Of a stretch of 42,360 nucleotides of DNA, positions 10,958 through 19,738 are shown piece after piece (position 1 is the stretch's first letter; each line of letters opens with the position of its first letter). A program made the translations under genes and the position numbers. The stretch lies in NCBI GenBank assembly GCA_024762925.1, contig JANTGM010000047.1, positions 1 to 42,360 of the forward strand, in the 5' to 3' direction. Source of the DNA: Kofleriaceae bacterium. GTDB lineage: Bacteria; Myxococcota_A; Polyangia; Haliangiales; Haliangiaceae. The notes beneath the pieces were generated by a model that saw only the letters and a program-made list of their open reading frames with translations, made no database searches and had not been told where the DNA came from.

Positions 10958-12502
<1,545 letters not shown>

Positions 12503-12506
12503 TGGG

Positions 12507-13328
12507 TCAATCATACTGGGCATTTGCCCCAGACGCTACTTGCGTTGTGACTGGCGAGCCAATGGGAGGCAGGCGCAAATACCGAGAAAGTAGTCGGGTT
12601 CCCAAATAGAAGGGACCTGTATCAAGAAGCGCCACAATAAGCTTAAAGCAATACCCCGACACGATGTACACGAAGAGCTGGCCGATCAGTCCTTCATTGG
12701 GCTCGATTCGCAGGGCACCAACGTAGAAATGGGTGATTAGAATCACCGCGCTCGTATCGACTAGCTGACTTACGAGCGTGGATCCATTGTTGCGCAACCA
12801 GAGGTGGCGGCCGTTCGTGAGCCGTTTCCAGAAGTGAAAGACTCGCACATCAACGAACTGAGCAACCGCATACGCGATCATGGAGGCAACAACAGCAGCA
12901 AACGCCAGCTCTCGAACACCATCGAAAACGGGACTTGAGAAGCCCGGTAACACACCTCCAAGCCACAGCAATGCCATCACCCACACATTGAGACCAAGCC
13001 CAACCCAAACCACATTGTTGGCTCTTCGATGTCCGTAGAGTTCACAAATAAGGTCCGTGCAGAGAAAGGTCACGGGATAGGGCAGCACGCCAATGGCGAC
13101 CACCATGGGCACGGTGAGTCCAATACCGGGAATCGTAAACGTTAGGTCGACAAAGCGTGTGATGCCGATGATATTGAGTACCGAGAGCGTTCCTAAGAAT
13201 ATGCCGCTGAGAATCAGAAAAACTCGCTCACGGCGTCGAAACACCTCGACCTCCGAGAGCCTCTCCAGATCGGCATATTCGTGCTGCTGTGAGGGAAGCA
13301 GCTCTTCGAGAGGCAGGGAGCCAGCCAT
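12507..13328 (-). CDS. Queuosine precursor transporter (YhhQ/VUT family)
   Basis: 273 residues with about six membrane helices after a 35-residue soluble N-terminus. Family motifs are present: ILSGIFLGTLSVLNIIG, PYPVTFLCTDLICELYG (the most conserved stretch), and VAQFVDVRVFHFWKR, with a polar Gln/Asp pair in the helix. PF02592 proteins import queuine, preQ0 or preQ1 for tRNA modification. No other queuosine gene is in the window. The ATG at 13328 lies 53 bases from the divergent kinase gene. The downstream PEGA-barrel gene begins near its stop, so the two are probably one transcript although functionally unrelated. Confidence 0.92.
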   Translation of the reverse strand: MAGSLPLEELLPSQQHEYADLERLSEVEVFRRRERVFLILSGIFLGTLSVLNIIGITRFVDLTFTIPGIGLTVPMVVAIGVLPYPVTFLCTDLICELYGHRRANNVVWVGLGLNVWVMALLWLGGVLPGFSSPVFDGVRELAFAAVVASMIAYAVAQFVDVRVFHFWKRLTNGRHLWLRNNGSTLVSQLVDTSAVILITHFYVGALRIEPNEGLIGQLFVYIVSGYCFKLIVALLDTGPFYLGTRLLSRYLRLPPIGSPVTTQVASGANAQYD

Positions 13329-13381: not shown

Positions 13382-14539
13382 ATGAGCAAAGGGGAGCGAA
13401 TACGAGATGGTCGCTATGAGCTAATCGATGTCGCTGGACGGGGCGGAATGGCCGTGGTCTGGCGTGCGACGCAGCATGGTGATGTTGGTTTCAAGCGCAC
13501 GGTCGCCGTCAAGCAGATGCACGACCACCTGAGCGAGAGTCCCCTTTACATCGATATGTTTGCCGAGGAGGCAAGAGTCTGTGCGGCGATGCAAAGCCCA
13601 AATATGGCTCAGGTCTACGACTTTGTTCGCGAAGACAACCGCTACTACCTAATCTTGGAATGGATCGACGGCATTGACCTTGGCAGCTTAATTCGCCACT
13701 TCACCAAACGCGATCAACAAATGCCTTGGGAAATGAGTGCCGCTATCGGTGTTGGAGTCCTGCGGGCTCTCGCCGACGCGCATGAACGCAAAGACGACGA
13801 TGGCAACGTCTGCCCGATATTGCATCGAGATATCTCTCCGCACAACATCCTCATTACCCAGCGTGGCATGGTCAAGCTCATTGATTTTGGGCTCTGCCTT
13901 GCGCCAGATCGCAAAAAAGATCTGACTGAACCAGGTGTGGTCAAAGGCAAGATGTCTTATCTCTCTCCAGAGATTGTTCAGGGCCACCGTCCAACGCCAA
14001 AGAGTGATCAGTTCTCGGTTGGCTCAGTCCTTTGGGAGAGTCTTGCAGGCAAGAAACTCTTTGATGGCGAAAATGATTTCGAGGTCTACACAAAGATTCG
14101 CGAAGGACAGGTGGCGCCGATTCGACCAATCCGTCGCGACCTCCCTCGAGCCATGGTTGGTATTCTGCAGAAGTCGCTTGCAACGGAAGAAGAAAATCGC
14201 TTTGCGAGCGCGCGTGAGATGGGACGAGAACTCTCTTCGGTCCTAAAGTCAGCTCGCACGGCTTCCAAAGATCTGCACGCACTGATTGGTAGAACCGTTG
14301 TCGATGCCCGGGAACACTTGGAAATGGGTGAACGAACTGGTGATCACTCCACAACAACCCCCATCGCCGATCCAGTGATCGATCAAGTAACGCTTCCAGG
14401 ACAGCAAGAAACCGAGACAAAGGACGGTCGCAAGAGACGCGGTACTGCACCGATTGCGGCTGATGCGGTTGTTGACACCACAGAGAAACAAGAGCGCAAA
14501 GGGCTTCTGCACCGCTTGCCGTTCTTCAATCGACGATAG
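13382..14539 (+). CDS. Soluble Ser/Thr protein kinase
   Basis: 385 residues with a complete Hanks-type kinase domain at about 10-275: glycine loop GRGGMA, ATP lysine 44 in VAVK, catalytic loop HRDISPHN (148-155), DFG at 168, activation/P+1 region GKMSYLSPE. All catalytic residues are present, so it should be active. The C-terminal ~110 residues are polar, with Thr-Thr-Pro motifs and a basic end, and lack a membrane segment, so the protein is cytoplasmic. GAGAGTGAAG immediately precedes the ATG. It lies 165 bases upstream of the pseudokinase gene on the same strand and is a plausible partner for it. Confidence 0.95.
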   Translation: MSKGERIRDGRYELIDVAGRGGMAVVWRATQHGDVGFKRTVAVKQMHDHLSESPLYIDMFAEEARVCAAMQSPNMAQVYDFVREDNRYYLILEWIDGIDLGSLIRHFTKRDQQMPWEMSAAIGVGVLRALADAHERKDDDGNVCPILHRDISPHNILITQRGMVKLIDFGLCLAPDRKKDLTEPGVVKGKMSYLSPEIVQGHRPTPKSDQFSVGSVLWESLAGKKLFDGENDFEVYTKIREGQVAPIRPIRRDLPRAMVGILQKSLATEEENRFASAREMGRELSSVLKSARTASKDLHALIGRTVVDAREHLEMGERTGDHSTTTPIADPVIDQVTLPGQQETETKDGRKRRGTAPIAADAVVDTTEKQERKGLLHRLPFFNRR

Positions 14540-14704: not shown

Positions 14705-17302
14705 GTGCAGGTGTGCAGTGCTTTGCTCCACATCAATGTCCTTCCTGACCTGGTGCACAAGCTCGGCTATACTTCGTACAGACCATTGCTGGGTGCCTTG
14801 ACCACGCCGACGAACTCCCCAAGCTTCGGGAGCTTTACCCTGCTCGCGAAACTCGCGCGTGGGGACATTGGCGATCTGTTTCTGGCACGCAGCCAAGGTG
14901 CTGGCGGTTTCGAAAAACTCGTCATTATCAAGCGCATTCATCCTGAGTTCATGCGTGATGAGGAGATTTCAAATCTCTTCCATACCGAAGCGCAATTGGC
15001 CGCGCGAATCGAACACCCAAACGTTCGCATCGTCTATGAAATTGGAAGCAACGATGCGCACCACTACATCGCGCTCGAGTACCTGGAAGGAGTTCCCCTT
15101 GTTGACCTGCTCCTCTCTCGCAAACGTGAGAGACGACTTGCGGATCCCAGACTGATCGCGTCACTCATTTCGCAAGCTTGCCAAGGACTTCACGCCGCCC
15201 ACAAGATCGAGCACCGAGGACGCCCACTCGTTCACGGAGATATCAATCCAAGAAGCCTCTTTGTCACTGAGTCGGGCACGACCAAGCTGCTCGACTTTGA
15301 CATTGTGGAAATGCGAGGAGCACTAGCGAAGCGCCACGGATTCGTTCGCCGAACGATTGCATACATGTCGCCCGAGGAAGTGCGTAGCGATGTCCTGGAT
15401 CGTCGCAGCGATATCTTCTCTCTCGGTGTTGTGGCGTGGGAAGCGATTACTGGACGCCGGCTCTTTAAGCAAGAGACCCGCGACAAGACTCTGGCAGCCA
15501 TCGACCGTGGACAGATTCCCAACGCCAAGGACTTGCAGAGCGACATTTCCGATGCATTGAACGCGACCATCATGCGGTCGCTTGCCCGGGATCCAACGCT
15601 CAGGTTTCAAAATGCGCAAGACTTTGGCTCCGCGATTGATCGCGCAATGCTCGACGAAGGGCCACCGCTGACGCCCGTTGCTCTCTCAACACTGATCAAG
15701 GACGCTTTTGGGCCGGCACTTGAGACACAGCGAAACTTCGTGCGCTCTGCGCGCAAGACACAGGATGCCGACAATGATGTCCAAGGCGACATTCACGGGG
15801 GATTTGGCGAATTTGACAACCCTACGGTCGTTGCCCAAACACCGGTCGATCCAGATGATTGGAACGTTCCCACAACGGTTGGTGGCCAAGAGCTGATAGC
15901 GGCCATCGACTCGATGGCTGATGCGAGTGACTTTGGAGAAAGCACGGGTGCAGCGACGAACCCTAGCCATGCCCCCACCGATCCGTTTAAGAAAATCTCT
16001 AAGGATGCAGATTTCTCAAATACAGGCAGTCCACCGATATGGCAAGACACTCGCAATCTCGTCTTGTCTGAGGTAGAAGCAGATAGCATCAGTGAGAACG
16101 ACGATGAGGAGAAGACGGGTGCAGTCGTCCTACCTAGAGCGGACTCCTTCGGCATCAACGACTACGGCCTGGCAGCTCCGCATTCAGGCGAGAACGCCGC
16201 GCCAAATGAGACCGAAGACGAAACGCACCCTGGCGAAACACTGCCAGGGAAAACGCACCCAGGCAAAACCCTGCCAGGGGAAACGCGTCCTGGCAAGACA
16301 CGCCCTGGAGAAGATGATGGTCTTGCCATAGAAACAACACGACCACATTCGTTTGGCCCTCCCCCTGCACTCGAAGCACCACTGGTGGCTCGTCCCGAGT
16401 CAAGGGCACGCGTAACATCATCTCCTCCGGGCAGCATCTACGACCGCCGGCTAGGCACAATCAACACGCCAACACCAGAAACAACCACGCCCGCCTTAAC
16501 GAGCCTGCCAATCCCGAGTGAGCACGAGAGCCTTGATCTGGCGAGCAAGCCAAAACGCAGCAAGGGGCGCCTCGCGGTTGCGTTCTTGGGCACAGCGGCT
16601 GTAGTGCTCGGTGCTCTGCTATTCGTCTTCTCCGATGACAAGAAGAAGGCCATGGGTGCGGCAAACGTCGCGCCTGTGATATCAGAGCCAGCGACCGTGG
16701 ACAGGCCATCGAACAATCCGGGGGCTGGAGCGGCAGCGGGCATTCTCGCAGCGGCCAATGGGCCGCAGGACGAGACGACCGAGAGCCAAGCAGCCGTCCC
16801 AAGCCATGCACCCGACGCCGGCGTGGAGTCTAGCCCGGATTCCAACACTCCAGAAGCGCAAGAGCAAATCAACGGCGATGTGGCTGTGACTGGCGCAGCT
16901 GTCAATAGGAAGAACTCTCAGGACGACAAGAGCGACGATCGCAAGAGCGACAAGAACAAGAAAGATCGCAAGAGCAACAAGGACAAGAAAGATCGCAAGA
17001 GCGACAAGTCCAGCACTGCGATTGCAAAGTCACCCCCCACCAAGAAGAACGCGACAAAGGCGACAACGACCAAGCCCCCAAAAAACACGAGCAATGCGCC
17101 CGGCTTCCTCACAGTCGCGGCAAGTCCATACGCAACGGTCTTCGTCGATGGTAAGAAGCGCGGAATTACGCCAATCGTCAAACTAAAACTCAAGCCAGGG
17201 GTGCACCGGCTCAAGCTTGTGAGCTCTGCTGGCGGCAAATCCAAGAACTTGAAGGTCCGCATCAAATCTGGCGACGTCATGCGCCAAAACGTCCGTTTCT
17301 AA
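14705..17302 (+). CDS. Membrane pseudokinase with extracytoplasmic PEGA domain
   Basis: Up to 865 residues. A Hanks-type kinase fold at about 40-325 keeps the ATP lysine (K76 in VIIK) and the APE-like segment (YMSPEEV), but its catalytic loop reads HGDINPRS (metal-binding Asn replaced by Ser184) and DFG reads DFD (197-199). A long acidic linker follows, with PGKT/PGET repeats at about 507-538. One membrane helix (about 622-644) is followed by a Lys/Asp-rich repeat (KKDRKS) and a C-terminal PEGA domain (799-865) outside the cytoplasm. The frame opens with GTG at 14705 with no clear ribosome-binding site; GTG at 14753 is an alternative. Probably a sensor or scaffold; residual activity cannot be excluded. 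Confidence 0.9.
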   Translation: MQVCSALLHINVLPDLVHKLGYTSYRPLLGALTTPTNSPSFGSFTLLAKLARGDIGDLFLARSQGAGGFEKLVIIKRIHPEFMRDEEISNLFHTEAQLAARIEHPNVRIVYEIGSNDAHHYIALEYLEGVPLVDLLLSRKRERRLADPRLIASLISQACQGLHAAHKIEHRGRPLVHGDINPRSLFVTESGTTKLLDFDIVEMRGALAKRHGFVRRTIAYMSPEEVRSDVLDRRSDIFSLGVVAWEAITGRRLFKQETRDKTLAAIDRGQIPNAKDLQSDISDALNATIMRSLARDPTLRFQNAQDFGSAIDRAMLDEGPPLTPVALSTLIKDAFGPALETQRNFVRSARKTQDADNDVQGDIHGGFGEFDNPTVVAQTPVDPDDWNVPTTVGGQELIAAIDSMADASDFGESTGAATNPSHAPTDPFKKISKDADFSNTGSPPIWQDTRNLVLSEVEADSISENDDEEKTGAVVLPRADSFGINDYGLAAPHSGENAAPNETEDETHPGETLPGKTHPGKTLPGETRPGKTRPGEDDGLAIETTRPHSFGPPPALEAPLVARPESRARVTSSPPGSIYDRRLGTINTPTPETTTPALTSLPIPSEHESLDLASKPKRSKGRLAVAFLGTAAVVLGALLFVFSDDKKKAMGAANVAPVISEPATVDRPSNNPGAGAAAGILAAANGPQDETTESQAAVPSHAPDAGVESSPDSNTPEAQEQINGDVAVTGAAVNRKNSQDDKSDDRKSDKNKKDRKSNKDKKDRKSDKSSTAIAKSPPTKKNATKATTTKPPKNTSNAPGFLTVAASPYATVFVDGKKRGITPIVKLKLKPGVHRLKLVSSAGGKSKNLKVRIKSGDVMRQNVRF
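16226..16315 (+). repeat. 15-bp tandem repeat in the pseudokinase linker
   Basis: Six imperfect copies of a five-codon unit encoding (H/L/R)-P-G-(E/K)-T. Successive copies carry CTGGC/GCCAG-type inverted cores, so the DNA can also form hairpins. It sits in the cytoplasmic linker between the kinase fold and the membrane helix and supplies repeated threonines, possible phosphorylation sites. Confidence 0.8.
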
Positions 17303-17319
17303 TCGCCCCAAAATTGCGA

Positions 17320-18312
17320 ATGTACACACGAATTGCAATCCCCACCCTGCTCTTCTTCGCGCTCGTTGGATCACCAACCTCCCATGCAGACAAGACCACA
17401 GAGAGCGCACAAAAAGGGCTTGCAGAGCTTCGATTTGAAGACGCACGCTCCATCGCCCTTAAAGGCCTGAAGGAGGGAACACGTGGTCCAGAGAACGTCT
17501 CCACGCTCTACATGATTCTCGGCCAGGTCTCAGCGTCGCTAGGCGATGATGCCGATGCCGAAGAGGCCTTTCGCGCTGCACTAAGTCTCGACGGTGAGGC
17601 GAGCTTGCCCGAAGGTGTATCACCAAAGCTCAGCGAACCTTTCTCAAGAGCCAAGGCGAGCCTAGAAGACGAGCAGCCGATCAAGCTGCTCAGCGAATTG
17701 GCTGCAGATGGCCAGCTTAGCGTCCAGATTGCCTCAGACCCTGCAAAGCTCGTCGGGGGCGTTGAAGCTTCCTACCAGCTGGACGGCGCACCGAAAACGA
17801 AACGAGCCAAAGGCACGGGCACGATTCGCCTGGAATTGCCAAGTGGCATCATCAAGCTTGAGGTCGCTCTGACCGATGCGCATGGCAACCAACTCACATC
17901 ACCAGAGCCTGTCGACGTGGGGGAGATCGAAACCAACGTTGTCATGAAAGATGACCTCACCTCGCCAACAGCGTCCCCACCGATCTACAAGCGATGGCAA
18001 CTCTATGCTGGCTTGGCAATCGGCAGCTTCGCAACAGGCGCCTACTATGGAAACGCCTCGCGTTCCAAGACTGATGAGATCGCTCAACTTGAGGACGGCA
18101 CAGAGTTTTCCGTAGCGCAAGACTTGGAAGATCAGGCCAAGAAACGTGCGCTCTATGCGAACATCGGCTTTGCCGCTGGTGCGGCTCTGGGAGCAGCCGC
18201 GGTTTGGATGTTTTTGAGCGAAGCGCCAACACCTGAGGCCCCTTTGGCAACGGCAATCGTGCCCATGGTAGATATGGACCGACTAGGCGTTGCTGCTCAT
18301 GTTTCCTTCTAG
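17320..18312 (+). CDS. Envelope TPR-type protein with two C-terminal membrane segments
   Basis: 330 residues from the ATG at 17320 (a TTG 6 bases earlier is also in frame). A signal peptide (MYTRIAIPTLLFFALVGSPTSHA) precedes a TPR-like helical region (about 25-105; LRFEDARSIALKGLKEG, GDDADAEEAFRAALSLDG). A beta-rich middle follows, then two hydrophobic segments near the C-terminus (WQLYAGLAIGSFATGAYYG and ALYANIGFAAGAALGAAAVWMFL). This layout is common in Myxococcota beside PEGA-domain kinases. It starts 17 bases after the pseudokinase gene and overlaps the D,D-dipeptidase gene by 14 bases, so the three are one transcriptional unit. Exact function unknown. Confidence 0.85.
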   Translation: MYTRIAIPTLLFFALVGSPTSHADKTTESAQKGLAELRFEDARSIALKGLKEGTRGPENVSTLYMILGQVSASLGDDADAEEAFRAALSLDGEASLPEGVSPKLSEPFSRAKASLEDEQPIKLLSELAADGQLSVQIASDPAKLVGGVEASYQLDGAPKTKRAKGTGTIRLELPSGIIKLEVALTDAHGNQLTSPEPVDVGEIETNVVMKDDLTSPTASPPIYKRWQLYAGLAIGSFATGAYYGNASRSKTDEIAQLEDGTEFSVAQDLEDQAKKRALYANIGFAAGAALGAAAVWMFLSEAPTPEAPLATAIVPMVDMDRLGVAAHVSF

Positions 18313-19012
18313 GCTCCCTCTACTCATGGTTCCACTCTTGCTCAACTGTGGCGAGAGCACACCAACATCAAGCCCTCCAGCCCTCGCAGAACCCACTCAG
18401 ATTCCCGTGTCCGATGCACAGGCAGTTGTGCACATGGATGCGGCATCCGTCGACCCCAACCAGTTCGTCGACCTACAGAGCCTCGTTCCAGAAGTTCTCT
18501 TAGATATGAGGTACGCTAGCGAGAACAACTTTACCCACAAAAAAGTCTATCCCAAGGCACGGTGCCTCCTGCGTGCACCAGTTGCCAAGGCGCTCAGGCG
18601 AGTACAGGATCGATTGCGAACCCAGCAACTCCAACTCTGGATTTGGGACTGCTACAGGCCCTTTCATGTGCAAGAGGAGTTTTGGAAACTCGTACCAAAC
18701 CCCAAATACGTCGCAAAGCCCATTCGTCGCGGAAAGACCCCGTGGCGCGGATCCAAGCACAATCGCGGTGCGGCTGTCGACCTCAGCTTGGCCGACACAA
18801 GCGGAACACAGCTCGTCATGCCAACGAACCACGATGATTTCTCAGAGCGGGCGCATCGTGACGCTGAAGGAATTCCCATGGCAGTGGCGGCCCGTGCAAG
18901 AATTCTCGATGAGGCCATGCGCGCCGAAGGCTTTCAGGGAATTGAAAGTGAGTGGTGGCACTACGACTATGCAGGTTGGCAGGATTACGAACTCTCAGAT
19001 GAGAGCCTTTGA
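18299..19012 (+). CDS. VanX/DdpX-like D-Ala-D-Ala dipeptidase lipoprotein (M15D)
   Basis: 237 residues. Lipoprotein signal MFPSRLPLLMVPLLLNC (Cys17). The M15D domain starts VDLQSLVPEVLLDMRYASENNF, with YRPFHVQEEFW, zinc ligands in SKHNRGAAVDLSL (His and Asp) and the C-terminal ligand in ESEWWHYDY, which also holds the catalytic Glu. These enzymes hydrolyse D-Ala-D-Ala. Cytoplasmic VanX confers glycopeptide resistance, whereas lipid-anchored periplasmic forms more likely recycle peptidoglycan dipeptides. No vanH, vanA or transporter genes are nearby, which argues for recycling. The start lies inside the end of the TPR gene, implying translational coupling. Confidence 0.92.
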   Translation: MFPSRLPLLMVPLLLNCGESTPTSSPPALAEPTQIPVSDAQAVVHMDAASVDPNQFVDLQSLVPEVLLDMRYASENNFTHKKVYPKARCLLRAPVAKALRRVQDRLRTQQLQLWIWDCYRPFHVQEEFWKLVPNPKYVAKPIRRGKTPWRGSKHNRGAAVDLSLADTSGTQLVMPTNHDDFSERAHRDAEGIPMAVAARARILDEAMRAEGFQGIESEWWHYDYAGWQDYELSDESL

Positions 19013-19039
19013 CCGTCGGTCGTGAGTACACTTCTTTGC

Positions 19040-19738
19040 ATGGCAGATTCGAATCTCAGCCTTGATGTGGACTGGGTTGGTCATGACGAGGGCCGCCGCA
19101 GAGTGGTACGCGTTTGTGTTTCGTCGGCACATGGGTTTACTCGTGATGGGGGCGCTCCAACAATCACTGTGGACTGCATCGACAAGAGAACCTTTGAAGC
19201 GGAACTAAACCGACTGCATTGTGAACTTGATGACGTTGCATCGAAGGCGAGCGAGTTCTTTGGCGAAAGCGCGCAAGCTGTGATCCAGCTGCGAGACGCA
19301 GAGATAGGGCCGATTGAGCGCTCCGGTGATCTCAAGGTGCAAGACGTCATGACCACGAACGTCAAAACCGTCTATCGAAATGACGAGCTGTCGTTGGCGA
19401 AGGAGCTAATGGATACAGGGCAGTTTCGTCACCTTGTGGTCCTAGACAGAGGCGAAGAGCACGTCGTTGGCATCATTAGTCGGCAAGACATCTACTATGG
19501 CGCCTTGGCCTGGTCTCTCGGCATGAGCGAGCCGATGCATCAAAAGATGCTAAGCGCCACCACGGCAAAGTCCGTTATGCGAAGCGACGTGCTAACGACG
19601 GTTCCGGAGGCACCACTGCGAGAGGCGGCCTCTGTCATGCTTGCGAACAAGATCGGCTGCCTGCCTGTGCTCGATGGCGTCAAGTTGGTGGGCATCGTGA
19701 CCGAGAGCGACCTCCTCGCGCAGATTCGGGTGTACTAA
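19040..19738 (+). CDS. CBS-pair protein with an N-terminal HPF-like alpha/beta domain
   Basis: 232 residues. Residues 1-100 form an alpha/beta unit (VVRVCVSSAHGF...FEAELNRLHCELDDVASKASEFFG) loosely resembling the ribosome hibernation factor/sigma-54 modulation fold; this resemblance is weak. Residues 105-232 are two CBS motifs (VQDVMTTNVKTVYRNDELSLAKELM; VMRSDVLTTVPEAPLREAASVML), each ending VVGIISRQD or LVGIVTESD. CBS pairs bind adenine nucleotides and regulate partners. No signal peptide. The ATG at 19040 is 27 bases after the dipeptidase stop, so it may be the last gene of that transcript, but its cytoplasmic location sets it apart. Confidence 0.88.
   Translation: MADSNLSLDVDWVGHDEGRRRVVRVCVSSAHGFTRDGGAPTITVDCIDKRTFEAELNRLHCELDDVASKASEFFGESAQAVIQLRDAEIGPIERSGDLKVQDVMTTNVKTVYRNDELSLAKELMDTGQFRHLVVLDRGEEHVVGIISRQDIYYGALAWSLGMSEPMHQKMLSATTAKSVMRSDVLTTVPEAPLREAASVMLANKIGCLPVLDGVKLVGIVTESDLLAQIRVY

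Follow-up and report, generated by a model that had tools for sequence, protein, structure and literature searches.

Organization of the locus

The window analyzed here, a stretch of 42,360 nucleotides corresponding to contig 47 of G000, a draft genome of the Kofleriaceae (Myxococcota), carries on its forward strand genes for a soluble kinase (kin1), a membrane kinase (PK2), an exported TPR protein, and an M15-type dipeptidase, followed by a gene for a CBS-domain protein (Table 1). The open reading frames of PK2, the TPR protein, and the dipeptidase hold as given in a preliminary description of this DNA, the second and third extending upstream to 17314 and 18290, respectively; the 17-base gap and 14-base overlap reported between them are correct, provided that the ATG codons at 17320 and 18299 are the starts. 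The genus is represented by three species (G000, G001, and G002), all of them drafts with broken contigs, and a scan of the named genomes, which are Kofleriaceae drafts (order Haliangiales, Myxococcota), gave no further species of the genus besides G001 and G002. The CBS-domain protein was rejected as a member of the unit: its G002 orthologue lies on another contig, and it is absent 3' of the unit in both G001 and G002.

Table 1. Positions of the genes and the promoter-like site in the window
Feature	Position	Strand	Description
kin1	13382..14539	+	Canonical Ser/Thr kinase, no TM segment; Pfam Pkinase 7.4e-36, HRDISPHN/DFG
PK2	14705..17302	+	Degenerate membrane Ser/Thr kinase; TM ~623-641, C-terminal PEGA
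PK2 promoter-like site	14745..14773	+	CTGACC-17-TATACT; core GCTATACT at 14766-14773
TPR protein	17320..18312	+	Exported; signal peptide, TPR-like helical bundle, beta domain, helical hairpin
Dipeptidase	18299..19012	+	M15 (PF01427) D-Ala-D-Ala dipeptidase-like, exported; complete VanX active-site residues
CBS-domain protein	19022..19738	+	Adjoins the unit in the window only

A conserved promoter-like element before PK2

The start of PK2 at 14705 is doubtful because a TATACT element conserved in the three species falls within the open reading frame as called; this start is probably 80 to 95 bases too early, and the true one is probably a TTG at 14786 or 14798. The catalytically intact soluble kinase described upstream is indeed there, but with the TTG starts the gap, given as 165 bases, becomes about 246 to 258 bases. 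The sequence GCTATACT is identical before PK2 in all three species, 54 to 60 bases 5' of the FGSF codon, and apart from it the kin1-PK2 interval shows no long similarity common to them. A shared 8-mer arose in 0 of 5,000 single-base shuffles of this interval. In the window, GCTATACT provides the -10 element of the one sigma-70-like site found in this interval, although a scan of the interval alone shows no excess of such sites over chance (1 found versus 2.1 expected). The recurrence of GCTATACT before PK2 in three species suggests that PK2 probably has its own promoter; kin1 is probably a separate transcription unit. The G001 orthologue of kin1 is 72 to 75% identical (79% in the kinase domain) and likewise adjacent to PK2, and kin1 falls in a clade of soluble kinases that occur elsewhere in the genomes. 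In G002, kin1 is absent beside PK2, and the protein most similar to it (51%) is as distant as paralogues are; kin1 was thus rejected as a fixed member of the unit.

A kinase-PEGA/TPR pair in the Kofleriaceae

We define a Kofleriaceae kinase-PEGA/TPR pair as a gene encoding a kinase, a TM segment, and PEGA, directly followed on the same strand by a gene for an exported TPR/hairpin protein. Among 20 loci picked by similarity to the TPR protein alone, a kinase gene lay directly upstream on the same strand in 15 and a C-terminal piece of a kinase in three; one locus ended with its contig and one had no kinase. Kinase-PEGA plus TPR is a real, recurrent two-gene module of this family. Each of the paired kinases crosses the membrane once and ends in a PEGA-like tail (SIDSxPYATIFVDGKxLGxTP), and a literature search found no reports of PEGA kinases in myxobacteria. 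The window locus fits the definition, with its 17-base gap, but departs from the canonical kinase motifs (HRDxxPxN and DFG).

The TPR protein, with as many as five relatives in a genome, gave weak TPR matches and no other covering Pfam family. Its AlphaFold2 model (pLDDT 79) consists of a signal helix, a helical bundle (residues 27 to 117), a beta domain (124 to 187), and a helical hairpin (228 to 302); a Foldseek search with this model gave no significant match, the best (E 6e-3) being to an FN3-like beta domain. Two membrane segments had been proposed for this protein: the model contains the hairpin, but just one segment exceeds a mean hydropathy of 1.5.

PK2, a degenerate but maintained kinase

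PK2 matches the kinase domain with an E value of 3.6e-27 and has one strong TM segment, at residue 623, with PEGA C-terminal to it. The external PEGA domain proposed earlier scores 18.7 in the window copy, below the Pfam PF08308 cut-off of 20.8, but its G001 orthologue passes at 31.9; of nine other kinases tested, seven reach or exceed the cut-off, and L099 and L112 have no listed match. In G002 PK2 (L111 / L062), the linker between the TM segment and PEGA is made of ADKER-type repeats, where the assembly breaks.

The beta3 Lys (VIIK), the alphaC Glu, the HRD Asp, and the DFG Asp are all retained in PK2. The HRD Arg is replaced by Gly, the Asn of HRDxxxxN by Ser, and the DFG Gly by Asp, changes that are kept throughout the genus: the copies in the window, G001, and G002 all read HGD(I/L)NPRS plus DFD (HGDINPRS in the window), and the Gly-loop reads GDIGD in the window and in G002, that part being missing from the G001 contig. 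More than 20 paired kinases elsewhere are all canonical (GGMAE or close, HRDxSPxN, and DFG), and the combination of HGD..PRS with DFD occurs among paired kinases in the three genus orthologues alone (3/3 species). The term pseudokinase, used in the preliminary description, goes too far. A strict bacterial definition demands loss of the beta3 Lys, the HRD Asp, or the DFG Asp (PMC12599244), and PK2 keeps all three; a broad one speaks of a lack of conserved motifs, and with its altered Asn, Gly, and Arg, PK2 could count as a pseudokinase under that wording (PMC4718504). Another kinase-like protein, encoded at L081 4053-5594 (-), has HRG replacing HRD and is a pseudokinase candidate under the strict rule.

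In the kinase tree, the three PK2 proteins form a 100/100 clade on a long stem (0.97) that arises from within the canonical TPR-paired kinases; its closest canonical neighbors (support 87/89) are the C17/C282/C312 proteins of the same genus. Between species, kinase domains are 64 to 70% identical for PK2 versus 79 to 81% for the canonical sister kinase. Since the domain is still this similar, and the frame is open in three species, PK2 was rejected as a decaying pseudogene; judged by its sequence, it is maintained, yet evolving faster than its canonical sister. Its kinase domain was modeled as a kinase fold at high confidence (pLDDT 89.9), and the nearest solved kinase in a sequence search was PknB (3f61; 2.7e-28).

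The M15 dipeptidase

The assignment of the third gene to the D-Ala-D-Ala dipeptidase family was borne out by PF01427 (E 7.6e-41; 140.5 bits versus a gathering score of 27). The protein carries the Zn and catalytic residues of this family (SxHxxGxAxD, ExxH, and Arg71) and aligns with VanX (1r44) at R71, H116, D123, D142, E181, and H184, the catalytic and Zn residues of VanX. It falls below the NCBIfam cut-offs for VanX (NF033115; 83 versus 320) and for DdpX-type enzymes (PRK10178; 153 versus 176). The lipid anchor ascribed to it rests on an atypical lipobox (LLNC in the window, where position -1 is Asn), but Cys20 is invariant in seven homologues. Most Kofleriaceae genomes with a match to the dipeptidase have a single copy. 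In the dipeptidase tree, the copies from this genus cluster with those of other Kofleriaceae; horizontal import is thus unsupported, though nearby forks are weak. By these sequence data, the enzyme is the ordinary exported dipeptidase gene of the Kofleriaceae.

Conservation of the linkage

Within the genus, PK2 and the dipeptidase are linked in 3/3 species, whereas the TPR protein and kin1 are each present in 2/3 and the CBS-domain gene in 1/3. Because the linkage is kept in all three species despite only about 46 to 51% identity of the unit's proteins over full alignments, it is more than a chance arrangement. In G001, contig 466 carries the PEGA protein, a transporter-like VUT gene, kin1, and the N terminus of PK2, and contig 604 carries the remainder of PK2 and the dipeptidase, which overlap by 4 bases; no TPR gene was found at the locus or elsewhere in this genome, which is 82% complete. 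In G002, contig 611 carries PK2 with a divergent carboxypeptidase-regulatory-like protein upstream in the place of kin1, and contig 441 carries the end of PK2, the TPR gene, the dipeptidase directly in line after it, and a TPR protein of 1,111 amino acids. In G001 (L061 2800-5697), an M13 metallopeptidase and a C39-like peptidase, not a CBS-domain protein, lie 3' of the dipeptidase.

The link between dipeptidase and kinase, whose absence in relatives the preliminary description named as refuting its scheme, is thus kept within the genus but is lacking beyond it, where the dipeptidase is not beside a PK2-type kinase. Its neighbors there are CorA, cytochrome-like, and unknown genes, and in most cases no kinase was found within the approximately 9 kb fetched. 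Since most Kofleriaceae copies have no nearby kinase, the dipeptidase does not need one. The exception is genus g4, in which a canonical kinase and a 255-amino-acid TPR/TM protein lie 1.8 to 3.8 kb 5' of the dipeptidase in the same orientation. The g4 neighborhood (L064, L067, L076, and L123) includes, before the dipeptidase, a gene on the opposite strand encoding about 320 amino acids without a Pfam match; this gene intervenes in two of the three loci with a kinase in view, and in G015 the TPR gene, the opposite-strand gene, and the dipeptidase are in view. A shared origin of the link in this genus (g1) and in g4 was rejected because their kinases fall in different clades, so the g4 link either had a separate origin or is a coincidence in genomes rich in kinases.

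Interpretation of the PK2-TPR-dipeptidase unit

The PK2-TPR-dipeptidase unit is a genus-specific offshoot of a common Kofleriaceae envelope signaling module, with an atypical kinase and a dipeptidase taken into the operon; the reading of it given next is the one that we favor, tentatively and at a little short of an even chance. The module as usually found places the gene of a canonical membrane Ser/Thr kinase with an outward PEGA domain directly before that of an exported protein with TPR, beta-domain, and helical-hairpin parts; judging from gene order and topology, this protein most likely docks on the PEGA side and controls how active the kinase is. The kinase of this genus no longer has the Gly of DFG, the Arg of HRD, or the second metal ligand, where Ser replaces Asn; because its domain is nevertheless conserved, it most likely acts as a membrane kinase scaffold that either responds to nucleotides or is slow. 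The single exported D-Ala-D-Ala dipeptidase gene of the Kofleriaceae has been placed in the PK2 operon with overlapping ends (with TPR in the window, with PK2 in G001), and the envelope unit and the dipeptidase would therefore be made together, probably from the promoter before PK2. As a member of its family, the enzyme would cleave D-Ala-D-Ala or similar termini on the outer side of the inner membrane and thereby recycle or remodel wall or prey fragments. We infer that PEGA and the TPR protein would sense wall state, with PK2 as scaffold and the dipeptidase as the response part. Against this reading, the offshoot is one event, seen in three species, and G001 has no TPR gene although the dipeptidase link persists.

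A single relocation might instead have put a housekeeping enzyme behind a kinase-TPR signaling pair, so that the dipeptidase shares a transcript but no function with it, an account to which we give appreciable weight, at roughly one chance in three. The neighborhoods outside the genus, mostly free of kinases, are as expected for such a passenger, and with about 120 to 430 kinase candidates per genome, kinase neighbors arise easily; yet in three diverged species the link has outlived the shuffling of its other neighbors (the TPR, kin1, CBS, and M13/C39 genes differ), and in g4 the dipeptidase independently follows a kinase-TPR pair on the same strand. The kinase itself may also be read differently. 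PK2 could be an active atypical enzyme in which the altered residues adjust catalysis without eliminating it, leaving an ordinary PEGA module with an altered active site; retention of the three residues of the published criterion (PMC12599244), the confidently modeled fold, and PknB as nearest solved relative make this a real possibility, if one that we hold to be somewhat less probable than not. What counts against it is that Asn to Ser, DFG to DFD, and GGMAE to GDIGD are fixed in the genus and occur in no canonical relative.

More specific schemes fare worse. That an impaired PEGA kinase and the TPR protein form a non-phosphorylating wall sensor controlling the exported D,D-dipeptidase of the same operon, evolved by degeneration of the canonical module, seems to us improbable. 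We consider quite improbable, too, the scheme of the preliminary description, in which the wall is sensed by PK2 and the TPR protein, the signal passes on through kin1, and the fragments are the substrate of the dipeptidase. The soluble kinase as relay would be its weakest step: kin1 is canonical, lies beside PK2 both in the window and in G001, and is well conserved there in its kinase domain, but being adjacent in just 2/3 species it is not an obligate relay, and the conserved promoter-like element that separates it from PK2 and its membership in a clade of soluble kinases found elsewhere argue against that role.

Comparison with known systems

Like PK2, the PASTA kinases of the PknB/StkP type are membrane kinases with one TM segment and an extracytoplasmic, wall-facing domain; PK2 differs in having PEGA instead of PASTA, degenerate HRD, Asn, and DFG motifs, and a partner TPR protein, and it scores 156 against the NCBIfam PASTA-kinase model, whose cut-off is 450. 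The MviN (MurJ) pseudokinase of Mycobacterium tuberculosis, of the ActPs3 family, likewise has a degenerate kinase domain that is linked to the membrane and associated with the synthesis of the wall (PMC12599244), but it has lost Lys, HRD, and DFG (VALT, Lsidhpsr, and Y--) and is fused to a flippase, whereas in PK2 the three catalytic residues are intact and the fusion partner is PEGA. PcgL, DdpX, and VanX share the M15/PF01427 family and the full catalytic set with the window dipeptidase, and PcgL, a D-Ala-D-Ala dipeptidase under the control of the PhoP signaling system (PMC3335776), is a precedent for a regulated enzyme of this kind; the window dipeptidase differs from these in being exported, with a lipobox-like signal, and in clustering with a Ser/Thr kinase, not with VanRS or PhoPQ. 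In PknG of actinobacteria, a bacterial Ser/Thr kinase is connected to the detection of signals by a TPR part (PMC8546545), but there that part belongs to the same cytosolic polypeptide, whereas the TPR protein of the window is separate and exported.

Myxobacterial relatives have hundreds of Ser/Thr kinases, only a minority of them with known inputs. The locus offers a natural comparison between a canonical, Kofleriaceae-wide pair and a genus in which the motifs were lost, the fold was kept, and an enzyme for peptidoglycan dipeptides was gained. If the dipeptidase is tied to the function of the pair, wall peptides would be indicated as the signal of PEGA kinases.

The G000 genome of 6.8 Mb has about 147 Ser/Thr kinase matches, and most other Kofleriaceae genomes have 120 to 430 candidates. 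On the reverse strand of the window (10958-12523), a PEGA protein contains a run of about 90 residues, nearly all Asp, between its PEGA repeats and its C-terminal domain; its G001 orthologue matches over the PEGA part.
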